DNA of 64,000 nucleotides from Methylotenera sp. (lineage in GTDB: Bacteria > Pseudomonadota > Gammaproteobacteria > Burkholderiales > Methylophilaceae). The translations under genes were made by a program, and so were the position numbers. The notes beneath the pieces were generated by a model. The model saw nothing but the letters and a program-made list of their open reading frames with translations. It was not told where the DNA came from and ran no database searches. Positions 2,906 through 62,590 of this stretch are shown piece after piece. Position 1 is the stretch's first letter. Each line of letters opens with the position of its first letter. Where the stretch lies: the NCBI GenBank assembly GCA_020622105.1, contig JAHRYP010000007.1:1-64000 (forward strand), read 5' to 3'.

Positions 2906-4185
2906 ATGGGCCTTTCCCGGAACGAGATAAAAAACTCGCGCAAATGCCTTTTCTAAAGAATGGCAAGATGCATCTTAATAGTCATGCCAAACCCTTTATT
3001 GTCGGCATCTTTGAAATGTTGGTATCACCAATAAACGTGTAGACACCTTTGAACATTCTGTTAAAAAGCACGCTGGAAAATGGTTGCGTTGGCGCTGAAG
3101 CCGATGTAAAGAATGGTTATGTAGATTTATTTTGCCTGTTTGCAGAAGATACCACTATCTTTGAAAGATGCCAGCTTCAGGATTATATCGAAACCAATGC
3201 AAATGCAGATGTCAGTGATTCGGCACATCATCTTAGCAGTATGTTTTATGTAGTCAACACGACGCCGGGCAAGCGGCTAAAAATCTGGATGAAAGCTTGG
3301 CAGATTTTCCTTATGTAAATAACAAGCTGTTAGCAGAGCAATTACCACCAGCGCAGTTTGATAGAAAAATGCGCGATACATTGCTAGATTTGTGAGCGCA
3401 GGATTGGACTATAATCTCCACTGCTATCTTAGGTAGCCTGTTTTAAAGCAATATGATAGTGAAGCGCGACGTAATCTGGGAGCGCGCTACACGAGAGAAG
3501 GCAATATTCTAAGCATGCGGCTGCGGTAACTTTCTGGTTATTACTTACCGTGAACTTATATTGTTGGATATGGAGATATTAAGAGCCAATAGAGAATGCG
3601 GCCAGCAAGTGCTGGATGTGCAAACCCTAATTAATATTGGCGCAGGCCAGTTTTAAGGCATCAAGATTGAAGCGTTCCCGCGCAAATCGAATAAGTCGTG
3701 CTATGGCTCAGCGATCACCAGATGAACATGGAAATATCGGTAGAATTTGATGCTAATTTCGCACTTATTCCACTTAAAGACACGCCTCGTGCGTATGAGC
3801 AACGCCCTGCAAATGGATTGGGCAAGTGTATTGCCGCCAGACCGTTGTAGTGATGTGCTTGGTAATCCCGCAGCTTTTAGGTAAGAGTAATCTGTCAGCA
3901 GTACAAAAAACTGGCATGCAATTGGTGTGCGGCAATCCATATGAATTATCGCCTGAATTCCATGGTCACGAAGCTCCTCGCAATGGCAAGCAGATTAAGG
4001 CGGTCTAATCTCATTAGGGCAAGCGCATCAGGTACTGGATAGAGCTGTAGATGCAGCTTATGGTTGTAAAGATGTAAATGCCGATGCAGCGCGAGTAGTT
4101 TTTTGTTTGAGTGCTATCAGGCTATTACTAGTTTGCTGCCAGCAGTAAAAAAGTTAGGAAAGCTCGTAAGTCTTTAGAGAAGTAA
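2906..4185 (+). pseudogene. Decayed MmeI/YeeA-like DNA methyltransferase (type IIG-like) pseudogene
   Basis: No long frame survives, but joined frames retain a collinear set of family signatures. These are an N-terminus MGLSRNEIK at 2906, broken by a frameshift in an A-run near 2928-2934 and continuing as NAFSKEWQDAS; KRVDTFEHSVKKH near 3023; FCLFAEDTTIF near 3130; NLDESLADFPYVNNKL near 3280; the SAM-binding motif ACGCGNFLVITYREL near 3513; DWASVLPPDRCSDVLGNP near 3816, where the catalytic NPPF motif IV is damaged; and the C-terminal HQVLDRAVDAAYG near 4030. These match the large class I SAM-dependent DNA methyltransferases related to MmeI and E. coli YeeA. Intact members are about 900 residues (2.7 kb); the 1.28 kb here implies deletions between the C-terminal part and motif IV and within the N-terminal nuclease-like region, plus several stops and frameshifts. 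Recognised by eye from joined frames; boundaries are approximate. Confidence 0.8.
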
Positions 4186-5296: not shown

Positions 5297-7219
5297 ATGA
5301 ATTTTCCTGATATTTTTGATGTAATAGTAGTGGGCGGTGGTCATGCCGGTACTGAAGCCGCACTTGCGGCTGCCCGCATGGGCCTAAAGACCTTATTGCT
5401 TACGCACAACATCGAAACTCTGGGACAAATGTCCTGTAACCCTAGTATCGGCGGTATCGGTAAGGGTCATCTGGTAAAAGAGGTGGATGCACTTGGCGGC
5501 GCTATGGCAGCTGCAACGGATGAAGGCGGCATTCAGTTCCGTATTTTGAACTCCAGCAAGGGGCCTGCGGTAAGGGCGACCCGTGCACAAGCTGACCGTA
5601 TTTTGTACAAGGCGGCTATACGTCGCATGCTTGAAAACCAGCCTAACCTGTGGCTGTTTCAGCAGGCGGTAGACGACATTATTCTGGATGGTGAGCGCGC
5701 GGCCGGCGTGGTGACGCAATTAGGCTTACGTTTCAGCTCAAAATCTGTGGTGCTTACAGCGGGTACTTTTTTAGGCGGTTTGGTGCATGTGGGTCTGAAG
5801 AACTACAGTGCAGGCCGTGCCGGTGATCCCCCTTCTATTTCGTTGGCAGCACGTCTGCGTGAAATCGGGTTGCCAGCGGGTCGTTTAAAAACAGGTACGC
5901 CGCCGCGCATTGATGGCCGTACCATTGATTATTCAGTAATGACTATGCAGCCCGGTGATGACCCAGTGCCGGTGTTTTCATTTTTAGGTAATGCGGCACA
6001 GCACCCTGCCCAGCTTCCGTGCTGGATTACGCATACGAATGCGCGTACGCATGACATTATCCGCAGTGGTTTGGATCGCTCACCAATGTATACCGGCGTG
6101 ATTGAGGGCGTAGGCCCGCGTTACTGCCCAAGTGTAGAAGATAAAATTCATCGCTTTGCCGATAAAGAATCACATCAGATTTTTCTGGAGCCGGAAGGTT
6201 TAAATACGAACGAGGTGTATCCGAACGGTATTTCAACCAGCCTGCCATTTGATATTCAGCTGGCTTTGGTGCGCTCAGTAAAAGGTTTGGAAAATGCCCA
6301 TATTCTGCGTCCAGGGTATGCAATTGAATATGATTACTATGATCCACGCGCTTTAAAAAGCACGCTGGAAACTAAAGCGATTCAAGGTCTGTTTTTTGCC
6401 GGTCAAATCAATGGCACTACCGGATATGAAGAAGCTGCTGCTCAGGGCTTGCTCGCCGGTGCCAATGCCGGTTTATATGCGCAAGGTAAAGACGGCTGGT
6501 GCCCTGCCCGCGATGAGGCTTATTTAGGGGTGCTGGTGGATGACTTGATTACGCGCGGTGTCAGTGAGCCGTACCGTATGTTTACTTCCAGGGCAGAATA
6601 CAGGCTGCAACTCAGGGAAGACAATGCAGATATGCGTCTGACTGAAATCGGCCGTAAATTAGGTTTGGTGGATGATGTGCGCTGGGAAGCGTTCAGTCGC
6701 AAACTTGAGGCCGTGGCGCGCGAGCAGGAGCGTTTGAAGAAAACTTTTGTACAGCCGGCTAATTTAAGTGCCGAACTGATGCAATCTGTATTCGGCAAGC
6801 CGCTGGAGCATGAATATAGTTTGTTTGAATTACTGCGTCGCCCGGAAGTGAGCTACGAACAAGTACTGTCACTGGGTGAGTTGGGTTTAGGTGAAGTAGA
6901 GCCAGCCGTGCGTGAGCAGGTAGAGATCGCAGCAAAATATCAGGGCTACATTGATCGCCAGATTGATGAAGTGGCGCGTAGTCGCGGTCAGGAAAATACC
7001 AAATTACCGAATGATCTGGATTATCGTGAGATTCACGGATTGCCGATCGAAGCGCAGCAAAAACTGAATGCACATAAACCTGAAACCATAGGTCAGGCTA
7101 GCCGTATTTCCGGCATTACACCGGCAGCGATTTCATTATTGCTGGTGTATTTAAAACGTAAATCACGCGCTAAAGCGGTCAACTTGGATGATGCAGGCGA
7201 TGTAGGGAATGTAGCATGA
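5297..7219 (+). CDS. mnmG: tRNA uridine-5-carboxymethylaminomethyl modification enzyme MnmG
   Basis: FAD-dependent partner of MnmE (old name GidA), acting on wobble U34 of tRNAs in the cytoplasm. It is 640 residues, normal for the family. The dinucleotide-binding [10 protein letters not shown] sits at residues 13-22, and the family signatures [20 protein letters not shown] and [10 protein letters not shown] follow; the latter stretch contributes to FAD binding. The [18 protein letters not shown] stretch and the C-terminal helical MnmE/tRNA-binding domain ([23 protein letters not shown]) are intact. It overlaps rsmG by 4 bp (ATGA), giving the conserved mnmG-rsmG-parA-parB order typical of the origin region. 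Confidence 0.98.
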
Positions 7220-52741: not shown

Positions 52742-53006
52742 ATGTCAGAGAATTGCTAACATCACGGCTGAAATAACGACATCTGTAGGCTGTTAGCTTT
52801 CTAACTGAGAGGCAAACGTTTTTGTGCGTAATAAGTCAGAAAACGTAGAGTCTGTGCAATAGAGTTAAATAAGCATATTAATATTTTTTATGGTGAATCT
52901 ATAAAATACGCATACAGTCAATCACCCTTATGGGTGATTATTGATGTAAAATTTCCGACGAACCATAAGACAAGACTGGCTCTGTAATCCAGAGGGATAA
53001 TGGATA
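52742..53006 (+). promoter_or_regulatory. Leader of the coiled-coil AsmA gene with an 8-bp hairpin
   Basis: A 265-bp gap. The only notable element is AATCACCC-TTAT-GGGTGATT (52920-52939), followed by ATTGATG. It lacks a T-run, and sits 67 bp before the start codon, so an operator or leader structure is as likely as a terminator for the GNAT gene. Confidence 0.35.
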
Positions 53007-55874
53007 ATGGATTTAAAAACTATTTACAGTAAAACACCAAAGGCATCTCGTGCCCCATTACCTTGGGTAGGAGGCCTATCAGCACAATTTAAGCAAATAT
53101 TGTCACACGTAGATGGTAAGCAGAGTGTTGAGGATATTCTGCCTAAGGCCGGAAAACTGAGTATTCATGAGTTACACAAGGTACTACTCAAGCTCGAAGA
53201 AGATGGTTATATCAAGCGTGTATCAAGTCATCAGGCAGAACCAGAGTGGTTAAATGAGATCAGCAGTTATGGTATTAATGCGAATAATAATTACAGTATT
53301 GCAGTAGAGGAAATTGATCCAGCTGAACTGGATTTTGACAGCTCAGATTTTAGTGCTGACACCGCTGCTGAAATAAAAGAAACGGCTGAACAGAACCCAG
53401 AGGCCGAAGCTGCTGTGGATGCGGATGTAGCGCGCAGGGCTCAAGAAGTAAAGGCAATAAAAGCCAAGCGCGAAGCCGAGCGCAAGGCACAAGCAGAAGC
53501 TGCAGAAAAAGCCAGACTTGAGGCCGCAGAGCAAGCAAAACGCATAGCAGAAGCCGGAGCAAAGGCACGGCAGGAAGTCGAGCGTATAGAGCGTGAAAAG
53601 GTAGAGTTGCTTGCTAAAGCGAAAGCCGAGGCGGAGGAACAAGCGCGCATAGATGCTGAACGTAAGGCGCAAGCTGAAGCTACAGAAAAGGCAAGATTGG
53701 AAGCAGAACGTATCGCGCACGCGAAAGCTGAAGAGCAAGCAAGAATAGAGCTCGAACGCAAAGCTCAGGATGAGTTGGCAGCAAAAGCCAAGCAGGAAGC
53801 TGAAGAAAAGGCACGGCAAGAAGCAGAGCGCATAGAGCGCGAAAAAGCAGAAGCGCTCGCTAAAGCGAAAGCCGAAGAAGAAGCACGGTTACAGGCGGAA
53901 GCCGAGCGTAAAGCTCAGGTCGAAGCTGCCGAGAAGGCCAGACTTGAGGCTGAACGTATTGCCCGTGAGGAAGCTGAAGAAAAAGCTCGCTTAGAAGCAG
54001 AACGCATAGCGCGTGAAAAGGCAGAAGCGCTCGCTAAAGCGAAAGCTGAAGAAGAAGCACGTTTGCAGGCGGAGGCAGAGCGTCAGGCTAAAGCAGAGGC
54101 TGAGGAGCAAGTGCGTCTGGAGACTGAACGTAAAGCGCAAGAGGCAGCAGCAGAACAAGCCAGACTGGAACAGGAGCGTATCGCGCGCGAGGCGGCTGAA
54201 GAAGAGGCCAGAATTGAGCGTGAACGTGTAGCTCAGGAAGAGTTGGCAGCAAAAGCCAAACTGGAAGCGGAGGAACAGGCACGTTTAGAAGCAGAACGTA
54301 TTGAGCGTGAAAAGGCAGAAGCGATTGCCAAGGCTGAAGCCGAACATGAGGCTCGTCTGCAGGCAGAGGCGGAACTTCAGGCTAAAGCAGAGGCTGAAGA
54401 AAAAGCACGTGTAGAAGCAGAGCGTATCGCACAAGTCGAAGCGGCAGAGCAAAAGCTGCGTGAAGCGGAACGTCTGGCACGCGAGGAAGAAAGAGTGCGA
54501 CGTGAAGCCGAGGAAAAAGCACGTTTAGAAGCTGAAAAAACAGTGCGCGAAGAGGCGAAGCGCCTCGCCAAGGAAGAAAAAGCAGCCAAGGCTAGGCTTA
54601 AGGCTGAAGAAAAAGCGCGTGCCAGAGCGTTACGCGGACCAAACATGCTCAATAAATTGAGCTTCAACAAGTTGCTCAAGCCAATATTGATTGCTATCCC
54701 GGTATTACTTATTCTTGTAGTTGGATTAATCCATGTAATGAATCTGGCCATGCTGATTGAGCCAATCGAGAAGTTGGCAACAGACAGTCTGGGAGAATCA
54801 GTCAAAGTGCAGGAAGTGCATGCGACATTGTTTCCGCAGCCACACTTGATACTTACAAATGTGGCCGTCGGCAGCAATGGTGATGTCAAGATTGGCAGTG
54901 TGAATATGGTGTCTAGTGTTTCAATGCTGTTCAATGATGTAAAAGCCATTAAATCACTTGATATCAATGATGTCACACTTACGCCAGCCGACTTTGGTCG
55001 ACAGGCGCAGTGGATCAATAACGCTGCAAAATCCGGTAAACTCAAGATCGAGAATATTACTTTAAAGAAAATTTCGTTCAAGGTTTCTGATTTAGAGCCT
55101 GAGGCTTTTAGCGGTAAAGTTGCGCTTACAGCATCCGGTGAGCTTGATAATGTCGAACTGGTCAATGCTGGCGGCAACCTCACGTTGCTGCTTACTCCGC
55201 AGAACGGTAGCGCTGCAGTTACGCTGACTGCCAGTGATTGGCAGCCTCCATTATTTAAAACATTGGCATTTGACGAAGTGACTGCCACAGGCGTTATTAG
55301 CCAGAACCAGCTCAACTTCAGCCAGATTGAGGCCAAGGCATTTGGCGGTATTATTAAAGCGCAAGGTGAACTGCGCTGGGGCGGACGTTTGAGTGCATCA
55401 GGCAATTTTGAGCTGATAAAAATGACATTACCGCGCGCACTTTCAGCCTATGACAGCAGTGCCTCTATAGATGGCACCCTTAACGCCAATGGCGTATTTA
55501 CAAGTAATGCTAATCAGGTTTCAGAGCTGGCGCAAGCTACAGAAGTCGATGCAAATTTCGAAGTGCTTGCGGGCAAAATCAATGGTATTGCGCTGTCACA
55601 TACGCTGGTGGCCGGGCCTGCCAGCAAACCGTCGCCGGATGCTGACTTTACACGATTTGATACGCTAACTGGCAACCTGCAATTCAAGGATAGCCAATTT
55701 AAGTATAAACAATTTGCACTCAAAACCGAGCAGTTTCGTGCACGAGGTAATTTTAATATTGAATCTGATAAGACCGTATCTGGAAAAGTCAGTGCCGAGC
55801 TAACTTCAACATCGCAGCGCCGACAGGGTAGTTTCACTATCAGTGGCCAACTAGCGGACGTTAAATTTAAATAA
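53007..55874 (+). CDS. Chimeric protein: winged-helix-like domain, long coiled coil, membrane helix, AsmA-like domain
   Basis: 955 residues. Residues 1-75 look like a small winged-helix fold (FKQILSHVDGKQSVEDIL, HKVLLKLEEDGYIKRV). An acidic linker runs to about 140. About 141-540 is an unbroken Ala/Glu/Lys/Arg coiled coil of TolA character with repeating EAERIAREKAEALAKAKAEE-like units. A hydrophobic helix at about 557-580 (IAIPVLLILVVGLIHVMNLAMLI) crosses the membrane. From about 585 to the end the sequence is AsmA-like (ATLFPQPHLILTNVAVG, SGKVALTASGELD, ADFTRFDTLTGNLQFKDSQF). The predicted topology puts the first 550 residues in the cytoplasm and the AsmA part in the periplasm. Function unknown; AsmA-like proteins are implicated in envelope lipid transport. 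The start is ATG at 53007, with GAGGGATAATGGATA upstream. Confidence 0.88.
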   Translation: MDLKTIYSKTPKASRAPLPWVGGLSAQFKQILSHVDGKQSVEDILPKAGKLSIHELHKVLLKLEEDGYIKRVSSHQAEPEWLNEISSYGINANNNYSIAVEEIDPAELDFDSSDFSADTAAEIKETAEQNPEAEAAVDADVARRAQEVKAIKAKREAERKAQAEAAEKARLEAAEQAKRIAEAGAKARQEVERIEREKVELLAKAKAEAEEQARIDAERKAQAEATEKARLEAERIAHAKAEEQARIELERKAQDELAAKAKQEAEEKARQEAERIEREKAEALAKAKAEEEARLQAEAERKAQVEAAEKARLEAERIAREEAEEKARLEAERIAREKAEALAKAKAEEEARLQAEAERQAKAEAEEQVRLETERKAQEAAAEQARLEQERIAREAAEEEARIERERVAQEELAAKAKLEAEEQARLEAERIEREKAEAIAKAEAEHEARLQAEAELQAKAEAEEKARVEAERIAQVEAAEQKLREAERLAREEERVRREAEEKARLEAEKTVREEAKRLAKEEKAAKARLKAEEKARARALRGPNMLNKLSFNKLLKPILIAIPVLLILVVGLIHVMNLAMLIEPIEKLATDSLGESVKVQEVHATLFPQPHLILTNVAVGSNGDVKIGSVNMVSSVSMLFNDVKAIKSLDINDVTLTPADFGRQAQWINNAAKSGKLKIENITLKKISFKVSDLEPEAFSGKVALTASGELDNVELVNAGGNLTLLLTPQNGSAAVTLTASDWQPPLFKTLAFDEVTATGVISQNQLNFSQIEAKAFGGIIKAQGELRWGGRLSASGNFELIKMTLPRALSAYDSSASIDGTLNANGVFTSNANQVSELAQATEVDANFEVLAGKINGIALSHTLVAGPASKPSPDADFTRFDTLTGNLQFKDSQFKYKQFALKTEQFRARGNFNIESDKTVSGKVSAELTSTSQRRQGSFTISGQLADVKFK

Positions 55875-56075: not shown

Positions 56076-56627
56076 ATGTCAAAGATCGTTTTCAAAGCGG
56101 GTGAAGCTACCGTATACACTGAAGGTAAAGACGTAACAGCAGCAATGCCTGAAATTTTAATCGGCGCAGTTGATGGACCAGTAGGTCAGGCATTTGCCAA
56201 CTTGATGGCACAAAGCAAAGGTCACACTGCGATGTTTGCGGTGCGTGATATTAATCAGTTAGTGCGTCCAGTTTGTATGACCGTGCCAAAAGTAACTTTA
56301 AAAGGCAGCACAGATGTAAGCTTATTCGGTGGTGTGGTGCAAGCGGCGACAGCCGATGCGATTCTGGACTGTGTAATCGAAGGCATTATCCCAAAAGAGC
56401 AAGCAAATGACTTGTGCATTATCAGCCTGGTATGGATTGACCCAGGTTGTATCGCACTTGAAAAAGAAGGTACATTGGACAAAGCCGACATGTACAAAAA
56501 CAACTACGAAGCTACTAAACTGGCGATCAAACGTGCATTGAATGACGAGCCAACGATCGATGAGTTGATTGCAAACCGTCATAAGATCAAACACTGTATG
56601 TGGGAAGATTCTTGGGATCAAAAGTAA
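56076..56627 (+). CDS. Formaldehyde-activating enzyme (Fae) homologue, catalytic His apparently absent
   Basis: 183 residues; AAGGA lies seven bases before the ATG. Collinear with Fae, which speeds condensation of formaldehyde with tetrahydromethanopterin: GEATVYTEGKDV at the start, VTVPKVTLKGSTDVSLFGG in the middle, and near the end VIEGIIPKEQANDL and NNYEATKLAIKRAL. Aligned by hand, the position of the catalytic histidine in canonical Fae (AHIDLIIG) is AMPEILIG here, so His becomes Met24 and the following Asp becomes Glu26. It also has an insertion (CIALEKEGTLDKADM) and a different Cys/Trp-rich C-terminus (HCMWEDSWDQK). It is therefore probably one of the divergent Fae paralogues of methylotrophs rather than the main enzyme; no other H4MPT gene is near. 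Confidence 0.88.
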   Translation: MSKIVFKAGEATVYTEGKDVTAAMPEILIGAVDGPVGQAFANLMAQSKGHTAMFAVRDINQLVRPVCMTVPKVTLKGSTDVSLFGGVVQAATADAILDCVIEGIIPKEQANDLCIISLVWIDPGCIALEKEGTLDKADMYKNNYEATKLAIKRALNDEPTIDELIANRHKIKHCMWEDSWDQK

Positions 56628-58269: not shown

Positions 58270-59316
58270 TCAGGTATTTAGATTGAGCATGGACTGCAGT
58301 ATTTTACGCACGGGTGTAGGAATGGCAGCGCCGATGGCATCTTCAATACTTAGCCATATCTGGCCAGTTTCACGCACTTCTGAATGTCGCTTTATGACCT
58401 CAAGAGGCTGCGGCGTGATATGCAATTTAAAGTGTGTAAATGCATGGCTTAGTTGAGGCAATGCCTGTTGCGGCTGCACAGTCATGCCAAACCGCTGTTG
58501 TGCGACGGCGCTATAATCATCAGTGCTTTCCTGTTCCGGGAAGCTCCATAATCCACCCCAGATGCCGCTGGGTGGGCGTTTTTCCAGCATGACATGATCT
58601 CCCTGCAGCATAATCAGCATCGTAGTATGTTTTTCAGGGATCGTTTTGCGTGGTTTTGGGGTAGGCAGCTGGCTCACACGCTGTTGTTGATAAGCTTGAC
58701 AGCTTTTTACCAGCGGACATTGCAGGCATTGTGGCTTGCTTCTGCTGCATAGCGTAGCGCCTAAGTCCATCAGGCCTTGGGTGTAAGCGACCATATCGGT
58801 TTTTGGCAGCAGACCCTCAGCCAGTGACCACAGTTCTTTTTCAGTTTTAGGTGTGCCGGGCCAGCCTTCAACAGCAAAATGTCTTGCTAATACGCGCTTT
58901 ACATTGCCATCGAGTATCGTTTGCACCTGATTGAAGGCAAATGAGGCAATAGCGGCAGCAGTGGAGCGGCCAATGCCAGACAAGGTTTGAATCGTATCAA
59001 AGTCTTGCGGAAACACGCCGCCATGGTCATCCATGATGGTTTGTGCCGCATTGTGCAGGTTGCGCGCTCTTGAGTAATAGCCTAAGCCGCTCCAGTGCTG
59101 TAGCACTTCATCCTGTGTTGCATTCGCGAGCGCAGAAATCGTTGGAAAGCGCTGCATGAATTTACTGTAATAACCAATCACGGCTGTAACCTGTGTTTGC
59201 TGCAGCATGATTTCTGATACCCAAATAGCGTAAGGGTCAGTGGTATTCTGCCAGGGTAGATCATGGCGGCCGTGTAGCTTTTGCCAAACGATGAGGCGGC
59301 TGGAGAAATCAGTCAT
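58270..59316 (-). CDS. mutY: Adenine DNA glycosylase MutY
   Basis: Removes adenine mispaired with 8-oxoguanine. It is 348 residues. The catalytic Glu is in WVSEIMLQQTQV near residue 35. The helix-hairpin-helix LSGIGRSTAAAIASF leads to the catalytic Asp in LDGNVKRVLARHF near 138, and the 4Fe-4S cluster cysteines follow as C-x6-C-x2-C-x5-C (CSRSKPQCLQCPLVKSC). The C-terminal MutT-like domain recognising 8-oxoG is present (EKRPPSGIWGGLWSFPE). Confidence 0.98.
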   Translation of the reverse strand: MTDFSSRLIVWQKLHGRHDLPWQNTTDPYAIWVSEIMLQQTQVTAVIGYYSKFMQRFPTISALANATQDEVLQHWSGLGYYSRARNLHNAAQTIMDDHGGVFPQDFDTIQTLSGIGRSTAAAIASFAFNQVQTILDGNVKRVLARHFAVEGWPGTPKTEKELWSLAEGLLPKTDMVAYTQGLMDLGATLCSRSKPQCLQCPLVKSCQAYQQQRVSQLPTPKPRKTIPEKHTTMLIMLQGDHVMLEKRPPSGIWGGLWSFPEQESTDDYSAVAQQRFGMTVQPQQALPQLSHAFTHFKLHITPQPLEVIKRHSEVRETGQIWLSIEDAIGAAIPTPVRKILQSMLNLNT

Positions 59317-59593: not shown

Positions 59594-62590
59594 TTAGAAC
59601 TTAAACAGTTTCTTTAGCTCTTCTGCCGCTTTTTCTTTAGCAGCATCTCCTGTCGATTTAGGTGCTTCAGCTGGTGCAGGGGCAGTATTGGTAGCGCCAT
59701 CAGTTGTTGCCGGAGCGGTCGCGGGATCAGCTGGCTTTTTCTTACCTAACAGGCTCTCCAGAGCTTTGGTTTTATCGCCATCACCTAGCAGCTCTTTAAC
59801 CGCAGTACCCTTTTCGCCACCCACTTTATCCAGCAGGTTGGACTTGGCCATCGCCGCGCCAATCGCGGCAAAGTCCATGCCGTATTTAGGCGCAGAAAAA
59901 GTACCGGTGATTTTTACCGGGATGCTCAACCCGGCTAAAGAATCGAGATCAGCACCGCCTTGGCCTTTCAATGATTTAACGATGGTTGGTTTAGCCAGAT
60001 AGTTGATGGTTTCATTGCCGATATCAATATCACCGCGGCTATCCCCTTTTGCCAGACGCAAAATTGGTGCCTTCATGGTCAGGTCTTCATTGTGCGCCAC
60101 GCCATTCTTGATATCGAAAGATGCGCTGAGCTCGCTGAAATCAGTTTTCTTCTTCTCGTCGGCGCCTATGCTGCTTTTATCCTGAAACAGAGCTACCTTG
60201 GATTTTATATCGCGCAGCGTACCGGGAATATCAATTCCTCTGATGGCGCCATCAGCAAGGTTGACCGTAGATTTGCCAGCTAAGGCTTTTTTAAGCGCGC
60301 TTACGGTGTTGCCAGTTGTTGTTACATCGACATTCAGGGTGCCTTTTCCTTCCAGCATGTCATTATTAATGGCATCTACCAGCAATGGACCTATCGCGAT
60401 GTTTTTCATGCTTTGTTTAAAAGTGATGCTGGGAGTACTGCGCGCATCTACTTTCAGCAGACCATCCATGCTGCCTTGATACAGGTTGGCAGCGAATGGG
60501 GAAACCGTGGCGATACCGTCTGCGGCTTTCAGGCCGATATTTACATTCTGTGTTTTAACATTGGCAAGTTTAAGCCAGCCGATTTTAGCTTCGCCGCTGG
60601 CATTAAGCTTTTTTAGCGCACTCAGATCAATCGGGGTGTCGCCGGAACTCTTGGTGGCAGGTTGATCACTTTTGGTGATGTATTTATCCGCATCCAGCTT
60701 GTCAATATTCAGGTTGAAGCTGTAAATCGGGTCATGAAAACGTGTAATGCCTATATTTGCATTCACCTGACTGTCATCAACTCTCGCTGCCAGTGGATTC
60801 AGGCTCAGTTTCTGGCCATCCGCTTTTAAGTCAATACGCACATTTGATGCTTTGGTTTTGCCATACTTGAGGTTGCCGATACGCAGTGAGCCATCTGCAT
60901 TCAGTGCTTTCAGGGCACTTAAATCCAGCGGCTTATCATCACCTTTGCTGGCGGCTTTGCTTGACGCGCTGTTATCACTAGCGCCGACATAACGGTCAGC
61001 ATCAATCTGGTCGATATCAACATCAAAGGTGTACAGCGGCTTGGCAAAATGGCTGATGCCGAAGTTACCCTTAATGTTGCTGTCATCAAGCTTAATGTTG
61101 AGTCCAGATAAAGTCAGCTTTTCGCCATCGGCTTTAACATTGACGTTGAGGCCGGATAACCGGTATTTGTCATAGATTAAATTGCCGATATTGATCTTGC
61201 CATCGAGCAGGATATTTTTCAGCGCTGATAAATCGGCGGGTTTGTTGCTGGCTGGCTCGGCTTTTTTAGATTTGCTGCTGCCCAGTAGTTTATTCAAATC
61301 CAGTGTGTCTGCATTGATATTGAATTTGACGTTTGGCTTTTTAAAGCTGTTAACGGCAACATCGCCGTTGAGCTTGGTTGCATCTACATTCAGGTTGAAT
61401 TTGCTGTTAATTTGCTCTTGTTTCGCATCTGTATGCAGGCTCAGAGCAAAGCCGACTTTTGCGGCACCGTTAGGCAGCGCTGGGTCTTTAATGTCAACAT
61501 TGCCTGCCAGTTTCGGCAGATCGAAAATCAGGTTTTCAAGGTTGCCCTGAAATGGAGACGAGAATTTCCCGTCAATGGAACGTGCACCCTGTTTGCCGGA
61601 AATATCACCGCTGATACCGCTGCTTTGCAGTGCTTTAGGTGAGCCTTTGATATCGGCTAATACCAGATTCGCTTTTAAGGTGTCGCCGGCTTTATCCTGC
61701 GTCAGGTTTACAGTGACTTTTTTACCGGTCACTTCATCTTTTTTCGCAATCAATTCAGGTGCGTTTAAGTCCAGCGTGATTTTTGCCCCACTGAACTGAC
61801 CATTTAGGGCGAGTTTCAGGCTATCAACCAGAAACTCGCGTGTTTCTGGTTTAGCGTCAATATCACCACTGGCCGTGATAGAAACATCTTTGCCGCCTAG
61901 CAAGTCACCGGTGATCGTTGCGTCCAGACCTTTGGCAAAAAAGTGCTTGTTTTCTGGGTCAGCCAGAAAATTACCTTTAACCTTCACATCCGCACTAACG
62001 GCTGGCTGGTTGGCTTTAATGCTAAAATCAGTTGTTAAATCAATCGGTTCCGCCAAGGCAATGTGGCCTGAAGTCAAATTGAATTTTGATAGTGCGTATT
62101 GCGCGCCGCTGCCTTCGTCTGTGTAAGCTACTGCAGAGTTTGTAACTTTAACGCCGTCTACATCAAATTTAATTTCTTCTGATTCTTCTTCCTTGCTCAG
62201 CAGATCATCAAAGTTGGTTGTGCCATCCTTGTATTTAATGATGTTGGCTTTGGCACCATCAATGTAAATGGTATCAACCACCAGCTGTTTTTTTAACAGC
62301 GGTAATACTGCCAGTGCTACCTGTGCGCTTTGGATAGAGGCAAATTCTTTGTCGGACTTATGTTCGGAGATAGAGACTTTACCCAGATTGGCACCGATTT
62401 TTGGCCAGAACGCGAGCTTGATATCGCCTTCAATATTCAGGGTGCGCTCTTTTTTGTCTTTCACCATCTTGACCACGAGTGGTTTGTAATCATTCGGGTT
62501 AAATGTTGCGGCAATCACTGCTACTACTAATATCAATAAGGCAACAACGCCGCCTAAACCAAACAAGCCGTATTTAATTAGTTTTTTCAT
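59594..62590 (-). CDS. asmA: Large AsmA family protein with tandem modules
   Basis: 998 residues, against about 617 for E. coli AsmA. An N-terminal membrane helix (residues 8-29, YGLFGLGGVVALLILVVAVIAA) is followed by the AsmA start FNPNDYKPLVVKMVKDKKERTLNIEGDIKLAFWPKIG-type sequence. Three consecutive modules of about 100 residues begin DLSALK near residues 450, 554 and 652, each with IGxL, LKADGxKL, DDSxxxxNxGI and IDxxDADxY positions. The C-terminal AsmA signature (ISGTFSAPKYGMDF-like VKITGTFSAPKYGMDF near 900) is followed by an Ala/Pro/Thr-rich tail ending KKLFKF. AsmA-like proteins are thought to bridge the periplasm in lipid transport or outer-membrane assembly. Second AsmA-type protein of the window. 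Confidence 0.92.
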   Translation of the reverse strand: MKKLIKYGLFGLGGVVALLILVVAVIAATFNPNDYKPLVVKMVKDKKERTLNIEGDIKLAFWPKIGANLGKVSISEHKSDKEFASIQSAQVALAVLPLLKKQLVVDTIYIDGAKANIIKYKDGTTNFDDLLSKEEESEEIKFDVDGVKVTNSAVAYTDEGSGAQYALSKFNLTSGHIALAEPIDLTTDFSIKANQPAVSADVKVKGNFLADPENKHFFAKGLDATITGDLLGGKDVSITASGDIDAKPETREFLVDSLKLALNGQFSGAKITLDLNAPELIAKKDEVTGKKVTVNLTQDKAGDTLKANLVLADIKGSPKALQSSGISGDISGKQGARSIDGKFSSPFQGNLENLIFDLPKLAGNVDIKDPALPNGAAKVGFALSLHTDAKQEQINSKFNLNVDATKLNGDVAVNSFKKPNVKFNINADTLDLNKLLGSSKSKKAEPASNKPADLSALKNILLDGKINIGNLIYDKYRLSGLNVNVKADGEKLTLSGLNIKLDDSNIKGNFGISHFAKPLYTFDVDIDQIDADRYVGASDNSASSKAASKGDDKPLDLSALKALNADGSLRIGNLKYGKTKASNVRIDLKADGQKLSLNPLAARVDDSQVNANIGITRFHDPIYSFNLNIDKLDADKYITKSDQPATKSSGDTPIDLSALKKLNASGEAKIGWLKLANVKTQNVNIGLKAADGIATVSPFAANLYQGSMDGLLKVDARSTPSITFKQSMKNIAIGPLLVDAINNDMLEGKGTLNVDVTTTGNTVSALKKALAGKSTVNLADGAIRGIDIPGTLRDIKSKVALFQDKSSIGADEKKKTDFSELSASFDIKNGVAHNEDLTMKAPILRLAKGDSRGDIDIGNETINYLAKPTIVKSLKGQGGADLDSLAGLSIPVKITGTFSAPKYGMDFAAIGAAMAKSNLLDKVGGEKGTAVKELLGDGDKTKALESLLGKKKPADPATAPATTDGATNTAPAPAEAPKSTGDAAKEKAAEELKKLFKF

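Follow-up and report, generated by a model that had tools for sequence, protein, structure and literature searches.

A winged helix on a long, predicted single-alpha-helix stalk precedes a short AsmA-like domain in membrane proteins of Methylotenera and other Burkholderiales

The window analyzed here, a stretch of 64,000 nucleotides (nt), comprises positions 1 to 64,000 of the forward strand of contig JAHRYP010000007.1 (GenBank assembly GCA_020622105.1) from Methylotenera sp., a member of the Methylophilaceae in the order Burkholderiales. Our subject is one of its genes, at 53007-55874 on the forward strand, a single intact open reading frame (ORF) of 955 codons. Its product carries, in order, a winged helix, a long Ala/Glu-rich helix, one membrane helix and an AsmA-like domain. 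This order, proposed in a first-pass annotation of the DNA, was confirmed by sequence searches and models; the full-length protein itself has no Pfam match at an expectation value (E) <= 1 and no NCBIfam match at E <= 0.01. The features of the locus are as follows.

52991..52996, forward strand: likely ribosome-binding site (AGAGGG), inferred from the sequence, ending 10 nt before the ATG
53007..55874, forward strand: whole gene, 955 residues, winged helix, rod, membrane helix and AsmA-like domain, from ORF and segment analysis
53007..53249, forward strand: N-terminal winged-helix domain, residues 1-81, with KTxKG-type and DGK motifs, from alignments, Pfam winged helix-turn-helix (wHTH) matches of relatives, and a structure model with its structural matches
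53298..53321, forward strand: short (I/V)VEE-type motif, residues 98-105, between winged helix and rod, conserved in Methylophilaceae relatives by alignment
53364..54659, forward strand: Ala/Glu/Lys/Arg rod, residues 120-551, of single-alpha-helix type by composition and by charge-pair and heptad statistics
53794..54132, forward strand: imperfect tandem duplication within the rod, period 174 nt (58 residues), 1.9 copies
54684..54740, forward strand: sole membrane helix, residues 560-578, by hydrophobicity
54741..55871, forward strand: AsmA-like beta-rich domain, residues 579-955, predicted periplasmic, from homology to a paralogue and relatives and from a beta-rich model

The protein had first been taken for a singular chimera, but its layout recurs in 15 of 120 genomes of the family and in 44 of 150 genomes of the order. 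In the family sample, whose members include Methylotenera, Methylobacillus and others, the C-domain query found matches in 46 genomes (E <= 1e-5, short paralogues counted) and the N-domain query in 16 (E <= 1e-3), with 15 genomes having both on one contig and one strand. The corresponding numbers for the order are 70 genomes with the C-domain (E <= 1e-20) and 67 with the N-domain (E <= 1e-5), and the two are joined in 45 genes. The gap between them ranges from 36 to 1187 residues (median 494), exceeding 250 in 39 genes and measuring 36-141 in the other six, a roughly 30-fold variation in spacer length. The N and C frames differ in length in eight of these 45 genes; one ORF through both was confirmed for five (G402, G430, G437, G455 and G505), and the remaining three (G420, G449 and G510) are counted as joined. 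Of 274 genomes sampled at class level, 18, counting that of the window, had the N-domain; among the 20 matches listed, the window's own is alone in a frame longer than 369 residues. Conservation of the layout across the order argues that it is not a product of chance; as far as sampled, the ends are fixed and the middle free, in an arrangement that is old within the order. Between the window protein and its closest relative (G006), identity is 74% in the N-domain and 63% in the C-domain, and the ratio of nonsynonymous to synonymous substitution rates is 0.18 for the C-domain, as compared with 0.02-0.10 for six neighboring genes; synonymous changes in the N-domain are saturated, so that no ratio could be given for it.

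The rod, residues 120-551, consists to 83% of Ala, Glu, Lys, Arg and Gln, with four Gly or Pro among its 432 residues, and would measure about 65 nm if wholly helical (432 x 0.15 nm). It had been labeled a coiled coil, a label at odds with its windowed heptad power (z -1.0, versus 8.4 and 3.7 for two SMC stretches from the same genome run through the same script, these being chosen by position and not by predicted coil ends); the apolar heptad periodicity of a coiled coil is absent. Seven other rods gave z values of -1.4 to 2.6 in the same comparison. Apolar residues make up 13% of the rod versus 23-25% in SMC, and opposite-charge minus like-charge pairs at i+3/i+4 number 27 per 100 residues in the rod and 4-6 in SMC. 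Enrichment of opposite-charge pairs between i and i+3/i+4, the mark of ER/K single alpha-helices, extends to 27 of 27 rods (z 4.8 to 21.2; the set stands without L142, the rod of which has only 55 residues). Heptad power was matched by 12 or fewer of 200 shuffles in five of the 27 (G006, L128, L129, L135 and L136), and the rods are mostly poor in Gly and Pro, with the exception of L137 (49 in 830). The sequence has the pattern predicted of a charge-stabilized single alpha-helix, and the rod would probably be a monomeric stalk. In dense opposite-charge pairing, few apolar residues and lack of a heptad it resembles the ER/K stalks familiar from myosins, but the known examples are eukaryotic, and helicity and monomeric state are here predicted. 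Literature listed with single-alpha-helix (ER/K) stalks includes PMC12203971 (in excerpt).

The variability of the rod also bears on a different explanation, in which it is passive low-complexity sequence and the winged helix regulates the membrane protein in cis, through folding, turnover or oligomerization, with reach being irrelevant. Spacers varying about 30-fold and shrinking to 36 residues, the tandem duplication inside the rod, and a form with a 39-residue gap that stands alongside a long form in G421 would all suit such an arrangement. Against this, a gap of more than 250 residues is retained in 39 of 45 genes, and the charge pairs enriched in every rod of the set, mostly with few Gly or Pro, suggest selection for a helix. 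We regard the passive rod as rather unlikely.

A single hydrophobic segment, residues 560-578, lies behind 559 residues that are predicted to be cytoplasmic. In all 18 relatives measured, net charge is +3 to +9 over the 25 residues ahead of the membrane helix and -2 to +2 over the 25 that follow (these are 20 fetched loci minus L130, where the contig ends in the C-domain, and L143, whose KSAKG was missed by the motif filter). This positive-inside pattern places the winged helix and rod, by prediction, in the cytoplasm and the AsmA-like part in the periplasm, in support of the earlier proposal of a cytoplasmic rod of some 60 nm joined to a periplasmic AsmA-like part. It also bears on comparison with TolA, in which an N-terminal transmembrane (TM) segment is followed by a periplasmic helical region. 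Domain II of TolA, too, is a long helix rich in Ala, Lys and Glu and belongs to an inner-membrane protein, but both the side of the membrane and the order of parts are reversed in the window protein, where the rod lies ahead of the TM helix. A TolA/TonB-like energy transducer, with a dimeric coiled-coil rod passing force between membranes, would fit the TolA-like composition and the fusion of a related winged helix to a TonB_C domain (L154, E 7e-11, with a membrane helix identified by eye). It is very improbable given the position and predicted side of the rod and its missing heptad signal; in addition, no ExbB/ExbD- or TolQ/R-like neighbor was recognized by eye, no dedicated search having been made.

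Assignment of the C-terminal domain, about 375 residues long, to the AsmA-like superfamily is made through its relatives. The window domain has no Pfam AsmA match at E 0.01 or at E 1, and its NCBIfam AsmA match is below cut-off (E 1e-4). It does match a paralogue in its own genome (E 1.1e-27) that itself matches Pfam AsmA at 6.8e-20, and 21 of 24 relatives' C-domains match PF05170 at E <= 0.01 (best 2e-18), other family matches among the 24 being to YhdP (nine), DUF748 (four) and TamB (one). The model of the domain is beta-rich. Searches of the PDB with the N- and C-domain models by Foldseek gave no match at E <= 0.001, and a sequence search of solved structures yielded nothing useful. The paralogue is a short TM-AsmA protein (G000 C44:138-1271, a 451-residue frame) that shares the homologous C-domain but is without winged helix or rod. 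In a tree of 58 C-domains, whose inner forks are partly open, with several long end branches and an arbitrary root, it is one of 28 short TM-AsmA paralogues, all of which a branch with 95/99 support separates from 24 forms labeled long (L142 almost rodless) and six rodless winged-helix forms. A PF05170 search of the genome gave three loci, the window protein not being included. One canonical AsmA-family protein of 998 residues (Pfam AsmA 4.5e-62) is encoded at 59594-62590 on the reverse strand, about 4 kilobases from the gene, and the cell therefore has other AsmA-like proteins; this gene adjoins a MutY-type glycosylase gene at 58270-59316. A plasmid collection searched with the C-domain of L140 gave no match.

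Proteins of the AsmA-like superfamily (PF05170; YhdP, TamB, YdbH, YicH and YhjG) have a single helix in the inner membrane and, after it, a beta-rich domain in the periplasm; the window protein has both, its topology being predicted from sequence. Members described in the sources consulted in part have their helix at the N terminus, as do the AsmA-like proteins of Pseudomonas aeruginosa (PMC10900882, in excerpt), whereas that of the window protein lies at residues 560-578 and its groove domain is only about 375 residues long. An extreme N-terminal helix is a usual trait and not what defines homology, and its displacement marks the protein as a variant and not a standard member. In length the domain is near P. 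aeruginosa PA2708 (361 residues, Pfam PF05359), whose periplasmic domain is reported as probably too short to bridge the periplasm (PMC10900882, in excerpt); that excerpt mentions no cytoplasmic winged helix or rod for PA2708, the two being compared by description and not by orthology. AsmA and TamB are relatives of chorein-N lipid-transfer proteins (PMC6791001, in excerpt). The open-licence literature searched yielded nothing recognizable as describing an AsmA-like protein with a winged helix or a stalk in the cytoplasm.

At the N terminus, the window domain has weak Pfam wHTH matches below cut-off (best E 0.0017), and 11 of 25 relatives' N-domains match HTH_47 at E <= 0.1 (best 1.5e-6). The AlphaFold2 (AF2) model is of low confidence (predicted local distance difference test score, pLDDT, 59); its structural matches by VIA-align are mostly winged-helix proteins, with a helix-turn-helix plus wing. 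The domain is basic, with a mean net charge of +3.2 over its first 25 residues and +3.7 overall. Recognition-helix charge was dropped as a test of DNA binding, being non-discriminating in a LysR control of two helices only.

The same domain occurs in other settings. The order sample gave 112 N-domain rows, 67 of them without a C-domain attached, and 20 of these 67, selected partly for long frames, were read. Receiver domains are present in five (Pfam E 1.2e-20 to 1.5e-24), one is the TonB_C protein described above, one (L150) pairs what by eye is a membrane helix with a C-domain found weakly by the family profile (69 bits), and two pass into a rod before the contig ends. The other 11 are small proteins or rich in Pro and Ala; the five of these that were scanned gave no Pfam match at 0.001. 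Within the family, G038 and G101 have members with winged helix and rod and no membrane helix, and stand-alone copies of 69-73 residues occur in G038, G101 and G116. Being common to stand-alone, receiver, TonB-type and AsmA-like proteins, the domain looks like an adaptor. Such stand-alone KTxKG winged-helix genes lie at L071:7723-7932, L069:7676-7885 and L070:1215-1436, each adjoining a gene with a heavy-metal-binding-like start (GMTCNNC or similar, by eye). Small winged-helix genes of about 160-190 residues form adjacent tandem pairs at L161 (about 3061-4180) and L162:3250-4416. Among 12 winged-helix-only genes whose neighbors were inspected by eye, no common theme emerged.

Neighboring genes gave little constancy. 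The Fae-family protein encoded at 56076-56627 on the forward strand (Pfam 4.5e-58; 96% identical to the G006 copy) had been offered as a hint, which fades on comparison: it directly follows the gene in two of 33 neighborhoods, those of the window and its closest relative G006, and is a lineage-specific neighbor. No partner gene is conserved throughout 20 family loci, 20 order loci that were clustered (largest clusters, five loci) or 33 nearest-neighbor pairs, the latter drawn by a simple script from ORFs of at least 90 residues with L059, L065 and L143 not included. A gene of 168 residues lies downstream in L054, L055, L056, L062 and L064, and mutL- and amidase-like genes (by eye) occur near the gene in some order members. 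An apparent response regulator and sensor kinase, by eye, at L062:8685-10770 and L064:11738-13824 (relatives G116 and G106) lie directly upstream of the winged-helix/AsmA gene on the same strand, 176-178 base pairs away, and the upstream gene in L128 starts like a response regulator. In L063 and L065 (G012 and G061) the gene adjoins a homologue of the mnmG-like gene of the window (5297-7219), and in L063 homologues of the next window genes and parA/parB-like genes are also near, all named by eye.

These last neighbors, together with the winged-helix fold and its basic charge, would suit a nucleoid tether, in which the winged helix sits on DNA and the rod runs from membrane to chromosome, coupling envelope growth to the nucleoid. 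The first-pass annotation had leaned toward DNA as the target of the rod, a leaning that finds no support here, as other fusions of the N-domain suggest signaling or adaptor use. The domain occurs in receiver and TonB_C proteins, six of the 45 genes are nearly spacerless and unable to reach far off the membrane, no DNA-system gene is a conserved neighbor in the neighborhoods compared, and recognition-helix charge is uninformative; a tether of this kind is quite unlikely.

We propose, with about an even chance of being right, that the protein positions or controls a short AsmA-like lipid-handling module through a cytoplasmic adaptor borne on a stalk. The parts, their order and conservation, the charge topology and the rod statistics are observed; that the partner would be a protein and not DNA, the cargo lipid, and placement or control the purpose, we infer. 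The winged helix would bind a cytoplasmic protein partner, and a monomeric single-alpha-helix stalk would extend it to a partner at a distance. Docking may then set where or when the periplasmic groove joins inner-membrane lipid handling. With so short a groove, moving lipids all the way would probably take a partner in the periplasm or the outer membrane. Weighing against this proposal are the low confidence of the N-domain model, the failure of the recognition-helix charge test in its own control, the lack of a direct Pfam match for the window C-domain, the lack of a conserved partner gene, and the patchy distribution of the layout. A broader notion, which we hold unlikely, is that the KTxKG winged helix is a plug common to receivers, TonB-type, small cytoplasmic and AsmA-like proteins of one order, by which cytoplasmic signals would dock onto stalks and gate or place lipid transport in the envelope.

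AsmA-like proteins are leading candidates for phospholipid movement to the outer membrane; YhdP, TamB and YdbH are enriched at the poles of E. coli, the molecular bases being left for future study (PMC12977461, in excerpt). The predicted stalks are strikingly long, a gap of 1187 residues corresponding to about 178 nm if one helix. An order-wide natural version with a large conserved cytoplasmic module would offer a handle on their placement and regulation, with the winged helix usable as bait, and recurrence of the layout across the order suggests that envelope lipid handling may be wired to something cytoplasmic.
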